From: Taylorella equigenitalis ATCC 35865
GTDB taxonomy: Bacteria > Pseudomonadota > Gammaproteobacteria > Burkholderiales > Burkholderiaceae_B
Length of the DNA: 64,000 bases
NCBI RefSeq assembly: GCF_000276685.1
Contig: NC_018108.1
Coordinates: forward strand, 682,001 to 746,000
Reading direction: 5' to 3'
Below are positions 40,843 through 49,384 of this stretch, one piece after another; position 1 is the stretch's first letter, and each line of letters begins with the position of its first letter. Both the position numbers and the translations under genes were made by a program. Below the pieces are notes generated by a model that searched no databases, was not told where the DNA came from, and saw nothing but the letters and a program-made list of their open reading frames with translations.

Positions 40843-41760
40843 TTGAAACGCCTTATCATGGAGGGGAATCAATTTAGTTATGAGGACATGCCTTCAAAGG
40901 ATCAAAATTTAACTTTTAACGAATTAGAGAAATATTTAATTAAAAAACTATCGATTGAAGATCTGGATCAGGATATTCTTAAGACTTTGGGTTTGTTAGA
41001 GGCAAAAATTGGTTTTAATCATGCAGCTCAACTATTTGCAGATAAAAACAGTTTTAAATTAGTAGATTTAGTTAGATATGGCGTTGATATAAATGAGTTT
41101 AAAGAAAGGTTAACGGTTGAAAATGAGTCTATTCTTATTGCTTATGCCAAATCACTTGAAATGTATAGAAGGTATTATCAAGTTGAAAGAATTGAGGGGG
41201 ATGAAAGGCAGAAAATTGAACTTATTCCTGAAAATGCATTTAGAGAGGCTATCGCTAATGCATTAGTTCATAGAGATTGGAGCATTAATTCTTTTATAAA
41301 AGTCGAGATGTTTGAAAATTATATAGATATCTCGTCGCCAGGTGTATTGCCAAAGGGTATAAGTGAAGAGGAATATATTAACGGTAAATTTTAATTACTC
41401 AGAAATGAAAAAGTCGGTACTTTATTTTATAGGCTTGGGATTATTGAAAAGTTTGGAACTGGAATTAAGAGGATCAAACATCAATATAAAGGCAAGTTGA
41501 AAAAGCCCATTTTTAAAGTTGGTCCTAATTCGATATATGTGCGACTACCAGTTTTGATTGATGATATGGATGATTTGAGCAAGAACTCCTCAATAATCTA
41601 TCAGAAAATGCCGAAATCAGTAGAAATGAGTAGGGATGCTATTGAAAAGATAACAGGATTCGATAAAAGTAAGGTTCTTAGAGGTTTAGAGCAGTTAATC
41701 GCCGACAATCTAGTATCTAGGGTAGGTAGGGGTAGAGGTGTGCGATACATTAAATACTGA
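40843..41760 (+). pseudogene. AlbA/Schlafen-type ATP-binding transcriptional regulator, N-truncated and with a stop
   Basis: One frame runs from 40843 to 41760, interrupted once by TAA at 41392-41394. Before the stop it encodes the GHKL-like ATPase part (IPENAFREAIANALVHRDWS, DISSPGVLPKGISEEEY). After it come RNEKVGTLFYRLGIIEKFGTGIKRI and a winged-helix end (ITGFDKSKVLRGLEQLIAD). In this family the stop position is normally Ser (G-x-x-S-x-x-RN), so TCA to TAA is likely. The N-terminal AlbA_2 domain is missing too. These proteins often occur in mobile or defence-linked islands. Low similarity to its neighbours in origin is inferred from context only. Confidence 0.82.
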
Positions 41761-43980: not shown

Positions 43981-44274
43981 ATGAAAAATGTACTTGACGC
44001 CATAGACAAATTCAATACCGAAAGGAATTGGAAAAAATTTCACTCTCCTGAAAATCTTGCTAAATCAATTTCAATCGAAGCAGCAGAATTATTAGAGATT
44101 TTCCAATGGAATACTAAAGATATTGACAAAGAGCATTTAAAAGAGGAACTAGCTGATGTTCTTATTTATTGTTTAGATATGACATTAAGTTTAAATATCG
44201 ATCCCGAAAGAATAATATTAGATAAATTAAATAAAAATTCAATCAAATACCCCTTAGAGGATGTTCACCTATGA
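43981..44274 (+). CDS. MazG-like nucleotide pyrophosphohydrolase
   Basis: The 97-residue protein has the all-alpha NTP-PPase metal motif: IEAAELLEIFQW with E-x-x-E-like spacing, then KEELADVLIYCLDM. It belongs to the small MazG/DCTPP1-like group that hydrolyses (d)NTPs to NMP and pyrophosphate. Its stop overlaps the ATG of the next reading frame (ATGA at 44271), so it was translated together with the nuclease-helicase. A nucleotide-cleaning enzyme tied to a nuclease-helicase suggests phage defence; that is inference. Confidence 0.88.
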   Translation: MKNVLDAIDKFNTERNWKKFHSPENLAKSISIEAAELLEIFQWNTKDIDKEHLKEELADVLIYCLDMTLSLNIDPERIILDKLNKNSIKYPLEDVHL

Positions 44275-44417
44275 TTGTTTATACAGCAGATAAAAATAAA
44301 TTCCGTTAGGATATTTTAAATGGCAAGCTTATATCAAGTATTCAAAGTGCACTTAAGAATAATGGGATAGGTTATGGGTCTTCTGAAATTTGTTCATGGA
44401 ATTCTTCATTAAGTTAT

Positions 44418-46226
44418 ATGGATAGGGTAATTGAAGATAAAGATATTCCGAATAACGCTGGTGTAGCTATTGAATACGTTATTCCTGGAAATTCCAAAAG
44501 ATTGGACTTTCTTATTTCTGGATATGACCAAACAAATGAGTCTAATTTAGTAATTATTGAGCTCAAACAGTGGCAAAAAGCAAATGTAGATCCTAACAAG
44601 AAGGATGTAATTACTACATACGTTGGTGGTGGAGAAAGACAGGTAGCACACCCTTCATATCAAGCTTACAGTTATGGAAGATTGCTTTATGATTTTTGCG
44701 AAGTTGTTAGAAACAAACCAGTAAATATAAAAACTTGTGCTTTTCTACATAATTACCTGCTTGAAGAAGATGACCCTATTATAAATCCAAAATATTCAGA
44801 TGTAATAAAATCATCTCCTTTATACGGTTCTCAAGATGCTCAGAATTTAAGAAACTTTATAAAAGATAGTATAAAAAAAGGAGATGATATACAAATAATA
44901 CATGATATTGATTCTGGAAAAATACGTCCTTCAAAATCTCTTCAAGATTCTATTTCGAGTATGCTTGATGGTAATGAGGAATTTGTTCTAATTGATGAAC
45001 AAAAAGTTGTTTTTGAAAGAGCAATCAACTTAGCTGAAAAATGTATTGAAGATGGAAAAAAAAGAACTTTAATTGTTCAGGGAGGTCCTGGGACTGGAAA
45101 ATCAGTAGTAGCTATAAGATTATTGGCTGAGCTCATTAAAAAAGAACTTAATACGAGATACATTACTAAGACTTCTGCTACAAGAAATGTATACCAATCA
45201 AAATTAATGGGTTCTAACAAAGACATTGGTGTTATAAATTTGTTCGTGTCTTCTGAAACATTTCACAGTAAAGTTAAAGATTTTTTGGATGTTGCAATAG
45301 TTGATGAATCACACAGGTTGGTATTGAGGTCTGGGTATTATCAAAACATGGGTGAGAATCAAGTTCAAGAAATTATCAGAGCATCAAAATTTAGTGTGTT
45401 TTTTATAGACGAAAATCAAATTGTTCATGCTAAAGATGTCGGGACAATTGAAGAAATAAAAGCCTCATGCCAAAGAGAAAAATCAGATATTTATTATGAT
45501 GAATTACCAACTCAATTTAGGTGTAATGGATCTGATGGCTATTTGTCATGGTTGGATGATTTATTGCAGATTAAGAAAACTGCAAATCCACTTTTTGAAG
45601 CTGATTACAACTATGATTTTGATGTTGTTGATAGTCCAAGTGAATTATTTGAATGGGTAAAACAAAAAAACGAAGGAAGAAACCGTTCAAGGTTGCTTGC
45701 AGGTTATTGCTGGGAATGGAATTCAAAGTCAGATTATAGGGTTAACGATATTAATATTAATGATTTCTCCATGCAGTGGAACTTTAAAAATACCAAAACA
45801 TGGGCTATAGACTTTGATTCTATAAATCAAATTGGATGTGTACATACCTCACAGGGGTTGGAATTCGATTACGTTGGAGTGATTATTGGAGATGATTTAA
45901 GATTTGAAGATAATGTTGTTAAAACAGATTTTAAAAAGAGAGCTAAGTCTGATAGATCGCTTTATGGGTTAAAAACAAAAGCTCACGAGGAAATCAGAAA
46001 TTTAACTTTTGGTGAGGCTTCAAAAAAAATAGATTTAATTATTAGAAATACTTATAGAACTCTTATGACGAGGGGGATGAAAGGTTGCAGGGTCTACTGC
46101 ACTAACAAAAATCTTGCTCAATACTTTAAATTAAGGTTGGGTAAATATAAAGCCACGAGCCAAGATGTTTATGAAACACTCAAAGTGGCTGAATCTAAAA
46201 CTTCAACATATATTATTGATGAGTAA
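44418..46226 (+). CDS. DUF2075-type nuclease-helicase, N-terminus cut by a stop codon
   Basis: The 602-residue protein joins a PD-(D/E)xK-like nuclease region (RLDFLISGYD ... LVIIELKQW, residues 30-60) to a superfamily 1 ATPase: Walker A VQGGPGTGKSVVA, Walker B VAIVDESHRLV, SVFFIDENQIV, VHTSQGLEFDYVGVIIGDDL and RNTYRTLMTRGMKGCRVYC. This matches the DUF2075 family. The family normally starts at ATG 44271 (MIVYTADKNKFR), overlapping the MazG-like stop, but TAG at 44307-44309 breaks that start. The remaining frame is clean to 46226. Translation from ATG 44418 would lose 49 residues. Whether it still works is open. Confidence 0.82.
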   Translation: MDRVIEDKDIPNNAGVAIEYVIPGNSKRLDFLISGYDQTNESNLVIIELKQWQKANVDPNKKDVITTYVGGGERQVAHPSYQAYSYGRLLYDFCEVVRNKPVNIKTCAFLHNYLLEEDDPIINPKYSDVIKSSPLYGSQDAQNLRNFIKDSIKKGDDIQIIHDIDSGKIRPSKSLQDSISSMLDGNEEFVLIDEQKVVFERAINLAEKCIEDGKKRTLIVQGGPGTGKSVVAIRLLAELIKKELNTRYITKTSATRNVYQSKLMGSNKDIGVINLFVSSETFHSKVKDFLDVAIVDESHRLVLRSGYYQNMGENQVQEIIRASKFSVFFIDENQIVHAKDVGTIEEIKASCQREKSDIYYDELPTQFRCNGSDGYLSWLDDLLQIKKTANPLFEADYNYDFDVVDSPSELFEWVKQKNEGRNRSRLLAGYCWEWNSKSDYRVNDININDFSMQWNFKNTKTWAIDFDSINQIGCVHTSQGLEFDYVGVIIGDDLRFEDNVVKTDFKKRAKSDRSLYGLKTKAHEEIRNLTFGEASKKIDLIIRNTYRTLMTRGMKGCRVYCTNKNLAQYFKLRLGKYKATSQDVYETLKVAESKTSTYIIDE

Positions 46227-46263: not shown

Positions 46264-46528
46264 CTTCGGAGCCACTACTTTCTTTTCCTCATTCTTCTTC
46301 CGCCTCAACAGTCCCCAAAAATAACTCAAAATGTCGTTTGATGACTTCGCTTTTGACAGGTTTGGTGAATAGGTTTGAGGTTATTGCTACCGCCATTTCT
46401 AGTAGCCATGATGTAATTAGTGAATCGTGGCCAAGGGCTAGTGCTGTACCTTCTAATTTATTTATTTTGAGGTATATGTAATAGATTCGGCTATAAAAAT
46501 TCCGCTTAGGATTCCTGCGAAAGGATCG
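46264..46528 (-). pseudogene. Fragment of a sodium:solute symporter 3' end
   Basis: The minus strand encodes AGILSGIFIAE, then after a one-base deletion YYIYLKINKLEGTALALGHDSLITSWLL and LFTKPVKSEVIKRHFE, followed by a tail (LFLGTVEAEEE) to a stop. This matches the last 70 residues of the intact symporter at 47668-49149 with many substitutions and without its stop codon. It is a diverged partial copy, not an exact duplication, so it is either a relic of a second allele or the left border left by an integration event. Confidence 0.85.
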
Positions 46529-47866
46529 TGTAATAATAATGACAGAGGCAAAAGGTTCTGTAAATAAACGGGTTTTAGGTCTTTTACCAAAGTTAAAAAC
46601 TAAAAAATTAATAGTTTGTGTACTCTTTAGAGCTACAGTATGAAGTTAGTTGTTGTAAACATTACATAAGCAATAGGAGGTTTTTATAAATGTCTACGAT
46701 GAAAAAGGACACTATTGAAGCAAAATGATTTTCAATCCAAATATATACTCAGGACTTTAAAAATGACTTTATAAGTCTTACAGATATAGCAAAGTATAGA
46801 AATAGTGATGATCCACGATTTGTTATTCAAAACTGGATGAGAAATAGAAATACATTAGAGTTTATAGGATTGTGGGAAGTTCTTAATAACGAAAATTTTA
46901 ACCGTGTGCAATTCGACACGTTTAGAAATGAATCAGGACTTAACAGATTTACGATGACTCCACAAAAATGGATAGATTCTACTAAAGCAATTGGAATTAT
47001 CGCTAAGGCAGGAAGATATGGTGGCACATATGCCCATTATGATATAGCTATGGAATTTGCATCATGGCTATCTCCTGAATTTAAGCTATGTATTATTCAA
47101 GACTATAAGAGGCTTAAATCAGATGAAAATTCAAGATTATCTCTTGGTTGGAATCTTAATCGAGAAATATCAAAGATTAACTACAAAATTCATACACATG
47201 CCATCAAGGAATATCTACCATCCGATTTGACAAGTGAACAATTATCCTATAAGTAAGCAAGTGAGGGAGATATATTAAATGTTGCCCTATTCAATAAAAG
47301 GGCAAAACAGTGGCGAGAAGAAAATCCAGAACTAAAAGGGAATATGCGAGATTATGCAAGCCTGAATGAGTTATTGGTACTTGCCAATATGGAAAGCTAC
47401 AATGCTGTTTTAATTAGTAAAGGTATGAGGCAAAAGGATAGAATGATAGAACTTAGAAAATTTGCCAGAGCACAACTTCTATCCTTAGAAAAACTAAACT
47501 ATACAGGACTTAAAAGTTTAGAGGGTAAGACTAAGAGATAAATGTGAATAAACTATGAGATGGCTACCCCAAATATGGCTTTCCACTTTATAAAGCCGCC
47601 CCCTCGGAGGGGTTCTCTGCTTTCTCAAGGAGGTTCCACTTCTCCCGCCTCAACAGTCCCCAAAAAATCACTCAAAATGTCTTTGGATCACTTCATCGTT
47701 TACGGGTTTGGTGAATAGGCTTACGGTTATTGCTACCGCCATTCCTAGTAGCCATGATGTTATTAGTGAATCGAGTCCAAGAGCAAGTGTTGTGCCATCT
47801 AATTTGTTTATTTTGAGGTATATGTAATAGATTTCTGCAACGAATATTCCGCTTAGGATTCCTGCG
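46300..47866. repeat. Imperfect 220-bp direct repeats flanking the KilA-N relic
   Basis: The segment 46300-46519 is repeated, with about 15-20 percent mismatches by eye, at 47645-47866, which is the 3' end of the intact symporter gene. The 1.1 kb between them holds only the KilA-N pseudogene with its own ribosome binding site. This is the layout left by site-specific integration at a gene's 3' end or by recombination between paralogues. Confidence 0.8.
46690..47541 (+). pseudogene. KilA-N domain (phage antirepressor-like) protein with two stops
   Basis: From the ATG at 46690, preceded by a strong ribosome binding site (aggagg), one frame runs to 47541 with TGA at 46726-46728 and TAA at 47254-47256. 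The sequence is otherwise a complete KilA-N protein: FISLTDIAKYRNSDDPRF, NWMRNRNTLEFIGLWE, GLNRFTMTPQKWIDSTKAIG, YGGTYAHYDIAMEFASWLSPEF, and a C-terminal part ending KTKR. KilA-N proteins are phage or plasmid DNA-binding antirepressors. Two nonsense changes in otherwise good sequence mark a recent loss. Confidence 0.88.
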
Positions 47867-49149
47867 GTGGTTGTGTGTTTCCAGTACATTCCTAATATTA
47901 CGGCGATTGCCCAGACGCCCATCCCTCCAAATGCAAATCTGACTATTTCAAATATGCTTGATGGTTTGCATATACCAATTGTTATTCCACTTAGTCCTAT
48001 TAGTATAGTGATTATTCTTGAAAGCTTAAGAATCCTTTCGTTAGTAGATTTGGGGTTGATTATGTTTTGATAAATATCTCTTGTGATGCTTCCTGTGGCT
48101 ACCACCATAAGTGCTGAGACAGTTGACATGCCAGCAGATACTATGCCTGCGATTAATATTGAGGAGATGATACTTGAGAAGTTTTGTTGAATCAAAATGG
48201 GGACGATGAAATCGGCTTCATTGCCACGTAGGCCTGTTATTGAAATGGAGGCATTGACTCCTGACCATTCAATAAGGGTAGCGGATATAAACATCCCAAT
48301 TGTTCCAAGCAGTATTGCTTTAAACATAACTGCGTAATTTTTCATAGTGAAAAATTTAGTAAATAGTGTGGGTTGTGCGATGCTAAAAAAGCTCCATAAA
48401 AGTATCATCGAAACGTAGACACCGTAACCGTATCCGCCTTCGGCACCTGGGTGCGAAAGTAGTTTGCTATTTGTTTCTAGCATTGATTTCGTGATGTTTT
48501 CTAAGCCACCGCCAATTCTAATAGACATGATAAAAGTTGCGATAGCAGTGATAACCATGAGCAACCCTTGTAAAACGTCGGTTAGCATCGCTCCTCTCAT
48601 ACCGCTAAACATGCAGTAGAGGATGACTATTGTGCCTGTAAGTACTACGCCCGTCCACTCAGGGAATCCTGTAAATGTTTTAAAAATAACCCCAGCTCCA
48701 ACCATCTGTGCACCCATAACAGCCACGAGGAAAACAACTATCATTAGTGCATGAGAAATGCGGACTACGTTAGATTGAAATCTGTCTGCTAGATAGTCTG
48801 TCATAGTGAGGAACTGATTCTTTTTAGAGAGTTTCAATATTTTCATACCGACAACAAGTGCTGGAATAATCATAGAAAATGCAATGCCTGGTACTGATAT
48901 ACTTAGTCCTGCAAATCCCTCTCTATAAGCGATTGCAGGTACACCCATAAAAGTGCTGAAGCTATATTGAGTGGCGAAATAGGCCACGCCCGAAACTATA
49001 GCACCAGCTCTGCCTCCCATGATTAGATACTCTTTTAAATCTTTAGTTTGCTTTGCAGCTATATAACCTATGAAGGCTAGAAGCAGGAAATAGACTGCCA
49101 TAATCAAGAAAAATGAAAGTGGCATAGGGTTGATGAGGGACTCAATCAT
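47668..49149 (-). CDS. Sodium:solute symporter (SSS family, PanF-like)
   Basis: The 493-residue protein has about 13 membrane helices with the SSS signatures (YFATQYSFSTFMGVPAIAYREG near the N-terminus, GMRGAMLTDVLQGLLMV, AGIVSAGMSTVSALMVVATG). The best resemblance is to PanF-type pantothenate or related organic-anion symporters; the substrate is not certain. The ATG at 49149 has the better-spaced ribosome binding site; a GTG at 49155 is in frame. It overlaps the small-subunit gene. Its 3' end is duplicated at 46300-46519. Confidence 0.88.
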   Translation of the reverse strand: MIESLINPMPLSFFLIMAVYFLLLAFIGYIAAKQTKDLKEYLIMGGRAGAIVSGVAYFATQYSFSTFMGVPAIAYREGFAGLSISVPGIAFSMIIPALVVGMKILKLSKKNQFLTMTDYLADRFQSNVVRISHALMIVVFLVAVMGAQMVGAGVIFKTFTGFPEWTGVVLTGTIVILYCMFSGMRGAMLTDVLQGLLMVITAIATFIMSIRIGGGLENITKSMLETNSKLLSHPGAEGGYGYGVYVSMILLWSFFSIAQPTLFTKFFTMKNYAVMFKAILLGTIGMFISATLIEWSGVNASISITGLRGNEADFIVPILIQQNFSSIISSILIAGIVSAGMSTVSALMVVATGSITRDIYQNIINPKSTNERILKLSRIITILIGLSGITIGICKPSSIFEIVRFAFGGMGVWAIAVILGMYWKHTTTAGILSGIFVAEIYYIYLKINKLDGTTLALGLDSLITSWLLGMAVAITVSLFTKPVNDEVIQRHFE

Positions 49150-49384
49150 TGCCACTTACCTCATCATTTTGGCCGAATTTTTTTAGAAATTTACTTGCGT
49201 ATAGTGCTATGAGTAAGATTACGAATGTGCCATAAATTAACCATCCATATACGAATGTAGGGACACCGAACCAACCTGGGTTGTATTTTGTGCTGTAAAA
49301 GAAGGGGAAGGGAAGCATTATAAAAATATAAGCAATCCCAAAGATAATTTTCCAGGTTCTATTGAATTTATCTATTTTTTTCAT
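49142..49384 (-). CDS. Small two-helix partner of the symporter (DUF3311/YhdT-like)
   Basis: An 80-residue protein with two membrane helices (IIFGIAYIFIMLPFPFFY and VYGWLIYGTFVILLIALYA) and the P-x-x-FG-x-P-x-x-x-Y pattern of small proteins found beside SSS symporters, such as YhdT next to PanF. The ATG at 49384 (MKKIDKFNR) is preferred over the in-frame TTG at 49399. Its end overlaps the symporter start by 8 bases, so the two are made together. Confidence 0.82.
   Translation of the reverse strand: MKKIDKFNRTWKIIFGIAYIFIMLPFPFFYSTKYNPGWFGVPTFVYGWLIYGTFVILLIALYASKFLKKFGQNDEVSGND

Follow-up and report, generated by a model that had tools for sequence, protein, structure and literature searches.

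Do a small MazG-like pyrophosphatase gene and the nuclease-helicase gene that it overlaps in Taylorella equigenitalis ATCC 35865 constitute one unit of defence, and in which manner might the two products cooperate? The pair is located in a window of 64,000 nucleotides, which covers positions 682001-746000 of the 1,732,123-base host genome. The combination of MazG with DUF2075, to which the nuclease-helicase belongs, is widespread in bacteria and archaea and is often encountered among virus-defence genes, yet it is unstudied as a unit. PADLOC-DB 2.0.0 contains no model describing the MazG-DUF2075 pair as a system, and the literature search returned no paper naming DUF2075 together with MazG or with defence and none on Schlafen with MazG; judging by titles and abstracts, none of the papers on DUF2075 alone studies the family.

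The gene pair in the Taylorella equigenitalis window

The features of the locus, numbered within the window, are listed below.

43981..44274, + strand: gene for a MazG-like all-alpha NTP pyrophosphatase, 97 aa, intact, PF12643
44271..44274, + strand: ATGA overlap of the MazG stop and the original DUF2075 start, read from the sequence and also present in T. asinigenitalis
44271..46226, + strand: DUF2075 (SLFN-g3 helicase) nuclease-helicase frame, 651 codons, interrupted
44307..44309, + strand: in-frame TAG at codon 13 of the DUF2075 frame, read from the sequence
44418..46226, + strand: open part of DUF2075 from the next ATG (codon 50), 602 aa
44271..44876, + strand: predicted N-terminal PD-(D/E)XK-type nuclease domain (E68, D79, E97-x-K99, Q131xxxY135; model; fold match)
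45060..46103, + strand: SF1 / Schlafen group 3 helicase domain (PF09848; whole-protein fold)
46294..46519, - strand: partial duplicate of a symporter 3' end, about 228 bp, 86%, directly behind the pair

The overlap described in the initial annotation was confirmed, the MazG TGA (44272-44274) running over the ATG (44271-44273) of the DUF2075 frame, and the AT-rich setting ascribed to the pair was borne out by its GC content of 31.4% against 36.4% for the window. The MazG-like frame, which gave a single genomic match and is the only copy of its type in the host genome, was assigned to PF12643 by the Pfam profile search (E 5.6e-14, 52.6 bits against a cut-off of 27). The metal-binding acids of its EXXE...EXXD motif (E33, E36, E56 and D59) are present, being invariant in the 13-member family alignment and near-invariant across 51 partner proteins. 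Its nearest PDB match is the pyrophosphatase 4qgp (1.2e-19), while dCTP pyrophosphatase 1/RS21-C6 was matched at 3.9e-12; from relatives such as these, which are of low identity, we infer its substrate.

The open part of the second gene (602 aa) matches PF09848 with E 4.5e-93 and 312.8 bits against the Pfam cut-off of 24. The SF1 motifs are all present, namely the Walker A GGPGTGKS, DESH (DEAH in the relatives), QFRCNG, HTSQGLEFDYVGV and TRGMKGC, and the nuclease-domain residues E68, D79, E97-L-K99 and Q131xxxY135 vary in none of 42 relatives, so that the earlier description of a D...ExK nuclease-like region combined with SF1 helicase motifs holds. The Q-x3-Y spacing recalls what we take to be the RecB-family motif. 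When the first 202 residues were modelled alone (pLDDT 92), helix 37-54, strands 64-70, 77-85 and 91-99, helix 128-142 and strand 152-159 were obtained, which is the alpha-beta-beta-beta-alpha-beta order of a PD-(D/E)XK core and includes the D...ExK arrangement; the best PDB fold match, to Card1, is weak (E 3.5e-3, prob 0.89). For the whole protein, which was modelled from the intact sister-species protein (pLDDT 83), the closest solved folds were Dna2 (5eaw), a deep-sea helicase, SLFN11 (7zel) and RecD2, at TM-scores of about 0.3. The sequence gave no convincing match among solved structures, and a search of the viral structure library yielded generic SF1 helicases. As predicted from its motifs and models, the DUF2075 protein joins a PD-(D/E)XK nuclease to a Schlafen-type SF1 helicase.

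A syntenic, intact 651-codon DUF2075 frame, 85% identical and free of indels, is carried by the sister species Taylorella asinigenitalis (L003/L015), where the pair has the same ATGA overlap. Recoding of the TAG in the window copy was considered and rejected, as a sense codon occupies this position in the sister species and nearby genes are broken by interruptions of their own. Within 7 kb, three accessory genes (DUF2075, KilA-N and an AlbA/RecG-C-like gene) contain one internal stop each. The KilA-N gene (46690-47256, + strand; PADLOC PDC-S22, E 1.7e-70) has a single in-frame TGA at codon 13 (46726-46728), its listed ORF beginning at 46837, and the AlbA/RecG-C-like gene (40843-41760, + strand) is interrupted once, by an in-frame stop that ends at 41394. 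Both neighbours fit the claim that the pair stands beside relics.

It is rather likely, and compatible with all of the readings discussed below, that the local unit is simply dead, consisting of a pseudogene and a leftover MazG. With the stop at codon 13 and the restart at codon 50, the window copy lacks a complete PD-(D/E)XK core; the restart at 44418, near which no close ribosome-binding site was seen, would lose the first 49 residues, including most of helix 37-54 with E39, W43 and S46, and the two neighbouring accessory genes are likewise interrupted. Against this stand the facts that the TAG is the sole internal stop, with no further lesion across 651 codons, and that the 602-aa restart product would keep D79, ExK and all helicase motifs. 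Moreover, the dN/dS values with respect to the sister species are 0.13 for DUF2075 and 0.17 for MazG, which implies that selection acted on both genes through most of the divergence. The local copy is probably in decay, and the unit in the window, its nuclease gene being broken near the start, is probably inactive or weakened.

The dS of the pair (0.47-0.64) is low against the 1.4, 2.4 and 2.6 of three nearby genes, these being simple Nei-Gojobori estimates with the neighbours near saturation, which suggests that the pair was exchanged between the two Taylorella species after their split. The duplicate at 46294-46519 copies the 3' end of a sodium:solute symporter gene (47668-49155, matching stretch 47639-47866), and a related symporter fragment also lies behind the pair in T. 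asinigenitalis (L015:11984-12062); the duplicate is a possible footprint of this exchange.

Recurrence of the pairing and its genomic context

The pairing was further examined in 79 non-Taylorella loci, which were fetched by DUF2075 similarity as the top 80 of 581 and are biased to close relatives; four of them touch a contig end and were left out, leaving 75 scorable loci. A MazG gene was located within 100 nt on the same strand in 39/75, upstream of DUF2075 in 17 and downstream in 22, and within 1.2 kb in three more, while 33 had no nearby MazG. Wherever the two genes adjoin in the 79 loci, they are on the same strand, in either order, and the pairing was found across phyla in both bacteria and archaea. 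The pair in the window is not a chance arrangement, because its pairing is conserved elsewhere.

The distribution is patchy. A full-length DUF2075 protein occurs in 9 of 397 Pseudomonadota genomes, with a MazG partner at 8 of the 10 loci inspected, and 6 of 299 unselected genomes of Bacillota (the phylum of a Pseudobutyrivibrio genome) carry DUF2075, MazG lying beside it at five of the six loci examined; each of these two random samples thus has DUF2075 in about 2% of its genomes. The distance matrices of MazG and DUF2075 over 51 pairs are correlated at r=0.60, a value to which shared host ancestry can contribute and which was reached by 0 of 2000 permutations, the best giving 0.20. That orphan DUF2075 genes might draw on a spare MazG elsewhere in their hosts was rejected, since only 6 of 17 genomes with an orphan locus have one. 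MazG is therefore not obligatory, being absent from the neighbourhood in the above 33 loci and, for this type, from the whole genome in 11 of those 17.

Could the two genes then be separate defence genes that merely adjoin, DUF2075 acting alone in the manner of the single-gene Nhi and MazG being a passenger or a second system? Orphan loci are indeed common, both gene orders occur, and the PADLOC models of Nhi and AbiO match the helicase part. The invariable shared strand of adjacent cases, the overlapping stops and starts and the correlated distances nevertheless argue against this explanation, which is considered improbable.

The pair was also found on mobile replicons, with Halalkalicoccus, Priestia and Lactobacillaceae as plasmid carriers and a Microcystis phage as phage carrier. 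In the 22-kb record of Microcystis phage Mwe-JY31 (L013:14131-19643), MazG-DUF2075 is flanked on one side by a TPR protein and on the other by a protein of 416 aa that has no Pfam match. The DUF2075 locus of some Bacilli lies near an rlmH-like gene (L035:4107-4598, L020:12606-13097), rlmH being a known insertion site of mobile islands. No DNA-level match to two Pseudomonadota pairs was found in E. coli genomes, so that screens performed in E. coli may have missed the pair, although a DNA search is insensitive at such distance.

The neighbours of ten Pseudomonadota copies include GajA, GajB, two ThsB, a CBASS phospholipase and a type II methyl-directed enzyme, together with type IV enzymes and several PADLOC candidates, whereas seven control stretches from the same genomes, which form a small control, gave mainly kinase-type matches. 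Near plasmid copies stand BREX-4, R-M, type I and ABC-three-component genes, so that Gabija, Thoeris, CBASS, restriction and BREX are all represented around the pair. The MazG-like family alone is no defence marker, because its lone relatives on plasmid records mostly have no adjoining nuclease-helicase. The findings that would have spoken against the proposed defence pair, a pairing that fails to recur or a lack of defence genes nearby, were looked for and did not emerge, and the proposal is supported. The copy in the window, with its stop at codon 13, is probably not a working system. The MazG-DUF2075 pair is very probably a defence unit of some kind.

A housekeeping or repair function in replication or damage processing, with Schlafen-like translation control as a sub-variant, might be suspected from the resemblance of the fold to Dna2 and SLFN11 and from lone MazG relatives in housekeeping settings, for instance beside ribonucleotide reductase in Listeria. 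A pair confined to about 2% of genomes, carried by plasmids and a phage, placed among defence genes and showing a raised horizontal signal is hard to reconcile with such a role, which is regarded as very improbable.

The SauUSI-NUDIX parallel and a possible mechanism

Within 6 kb of the 79 loci, the recurrent neighbours comprise HNH nucleases (9), NUDIX proteins (10) and SauUSI-like PLD-helicase-DUF3427 enzymes (7), the last of which are called type IV by PADLOC. In an unselected sample of 14 DUF3427 loci (L182-L195), a NUDIX gene was found within 1.6 kb in 12, immediately adjacent in 11, with eight of the 12 on the same strand and four convergent, and in none of the 14 did MazG take its place. 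The two kinds of pair can share one neighbourhood: L029:1004-8146 encodes as an operon on one strand MazG, a DUF3427 enzyme, a NudG-like NUDIX, a small protein, HNH and DUF2075, where the small protein, without a Pfam match, resembles by eye a HisE/MazG-type pyrophosphatase, and the order on plasmid L158 is NUDIX, DEAD helicase, MazG and DUF2075. Of the NUDIX neighbours tested, the majority have their highest score with the pyrimidine dNTP diphosphatase model, though they stay under its cut-off, and one of two compared with the PDB has as its best match the CTP pyrophosphohydrolase 2rrk. This entry is presumably E. coli Orf135/NudG. By sequence comparison, the NUDIX partners of DUF3427 enzymes look NudG/Orf135-like.

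Orf135, RS21-C6 and DCTPP1 have been reported to hydrolyse 5-methyl-dCTP (PMC10742078), and SauUSI cuts m5C/hm5C DNA as a single polypeptide with no partner needed (PMC3874153), so that no activating role has to be assumed for the partner. That MutT homologues adjoin SauUSI homologues had already been remarked on in a figure legend (PMC7641849); the systematic two-way parallel, of SauUSI-like enzymes with NudG-like NUDIX proteins and of DUF2075 with MazG, appears to be new and was not found in the literature searched. The known activities of both partner types therefore meet at modified dCTP, and the preferred reading is accordingly that host DNA is kept free of modified dC by the pyrophosphatase.

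According to this preferred reading, the two genes would travel horizontally as a single unit directed against invaders, in which a restriction nuclease that senses modification is accompanied by a cleaner of the dNTP pool; this is advanced tentatively, at somewhat less than even odds. The DUF2075 protein would be the cutter, its SF1 ATPase/helicase loading on or scanning foreign DNA that the nuclease then cuts, and MazG, as a dNTP pyrophosphatase of the type of DCTPP1/RS21-C6, would remove particular nucleotides from the pool, 5-modified dCTP being the most likely. If restriction depends on modified bases and the pyrophosphatase keeps these out of host DNA, invader DNA alone would be left as substrate of the nuclease. 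We infer DNA as the target, modified cytosine as the signal and pool cleaning as self-protection, and the link from SauUSI to DUF2075 and modified bases is drawn by analogy; a search of the DUF2075 protein for a domain that reads modified bases identified none. The modified-base and pool-cleaner mechanism, taken by itself, is accordingly offered as a possibility, somewhat short of an even chance.

The same defence unit might instead operate by other chemistry, MazG lowering dNTPs (or NTPs) on infection and thereby lifting an inhibition of the nuclease or starving phage replication. Precedents exist in GajA, on which NTP/dNTP act as inhibitors until they are depleted (PMC8136825), and in Ppl, another nuclease held off by nucleotides (PMC12904381); MazG in addition figures among predicted defence domains that await validation (PMC13092281), and its catalytic acids are near-invariant. 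Depletion as a trigger would explain the presence of a dNTP hydrolase nearly as well as pool cleaning. However, many loci lack MazG, a constant drain on the pool needs a trigger and none was seen, and SauUSI works without its NUDIX neighbour (PMC3874153), so that depletion is judged rather unlikely.

A more doubtful generalization of the pool-cleaner reading is that of a class of methyltransferase-free restriction, in which a nuclease-helicase directed at modified cytosine would be spared self-attack by a dedicated dNTP-pool cleaner that denies modified dCTP entry into host DNA, and which would be represented independently at least twice, by DUF2075-MazG and by SauUSI-NudG. If true, the pool-cleaner idea would explain why nucleotide pyrophosphatases recur beside restriction nucleases and would provide modification-dependent restriction with a self-protection step.

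Comparison with known systems

Dna2 and Schlafen 11, the best whole-protein folds, combine an N-terminal nuclease with a C-terminal SF1 helicase as DUF2075 does, although the TM-scores are only about 0.3 and no convincing sequence match to solved structures exists. For the small protein, the all-alpha dCTP pyrophosphatases DCTPP1 and RS21-C6, which share the MazG fold, are the best characterised PDB relatives; their identity to the local MazG is low, and a common substrate is a prediction.

Among defence systems, the Staphylococcus nuclease-helicase immunity protein Nhi and AbiO are likewise nuclease-helicases with a related SF1 helicase, but they are single-gene systems without MazG, and their PADLOC matches are confined to the helicase part. 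Identity with Nhi was rejected, as the model covers residues 187-370 only (E 2.1e-11) and a MazG partner is present, and so was identity with AbiO (residues 186-526 only, E 3.3e-14). Gabija resembles the pair in having two genes, a nuclease, an SF1 helicase and a link to nucleotides; in contrast, GajA/GajB divide nuclease and helicase between two proteins, both from families other than those described here, and include no gene for a pyrophosphatase; identity was rejected on a short P-loop match to GajB alone (E 0.0016).

Type IV SauUSI combines a PLD nuclease, an SF2 helicase and DUF3427, whereas the protein described here has a predicted PD-(D/E)XK nuclease and a helicase of another family; it contains neither a PLD nor a DUF3427 Pfam domain, and identity with SauUSI was rejected on that ground. 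In its architecture SauUSI with NUDIX nonetheless parallels DUF2075 with MazG, for it too sets a single-chain nuclease-helicase beside a small dNTP pyrophosphatase, and the genes of both pairs sometimes share one operon.
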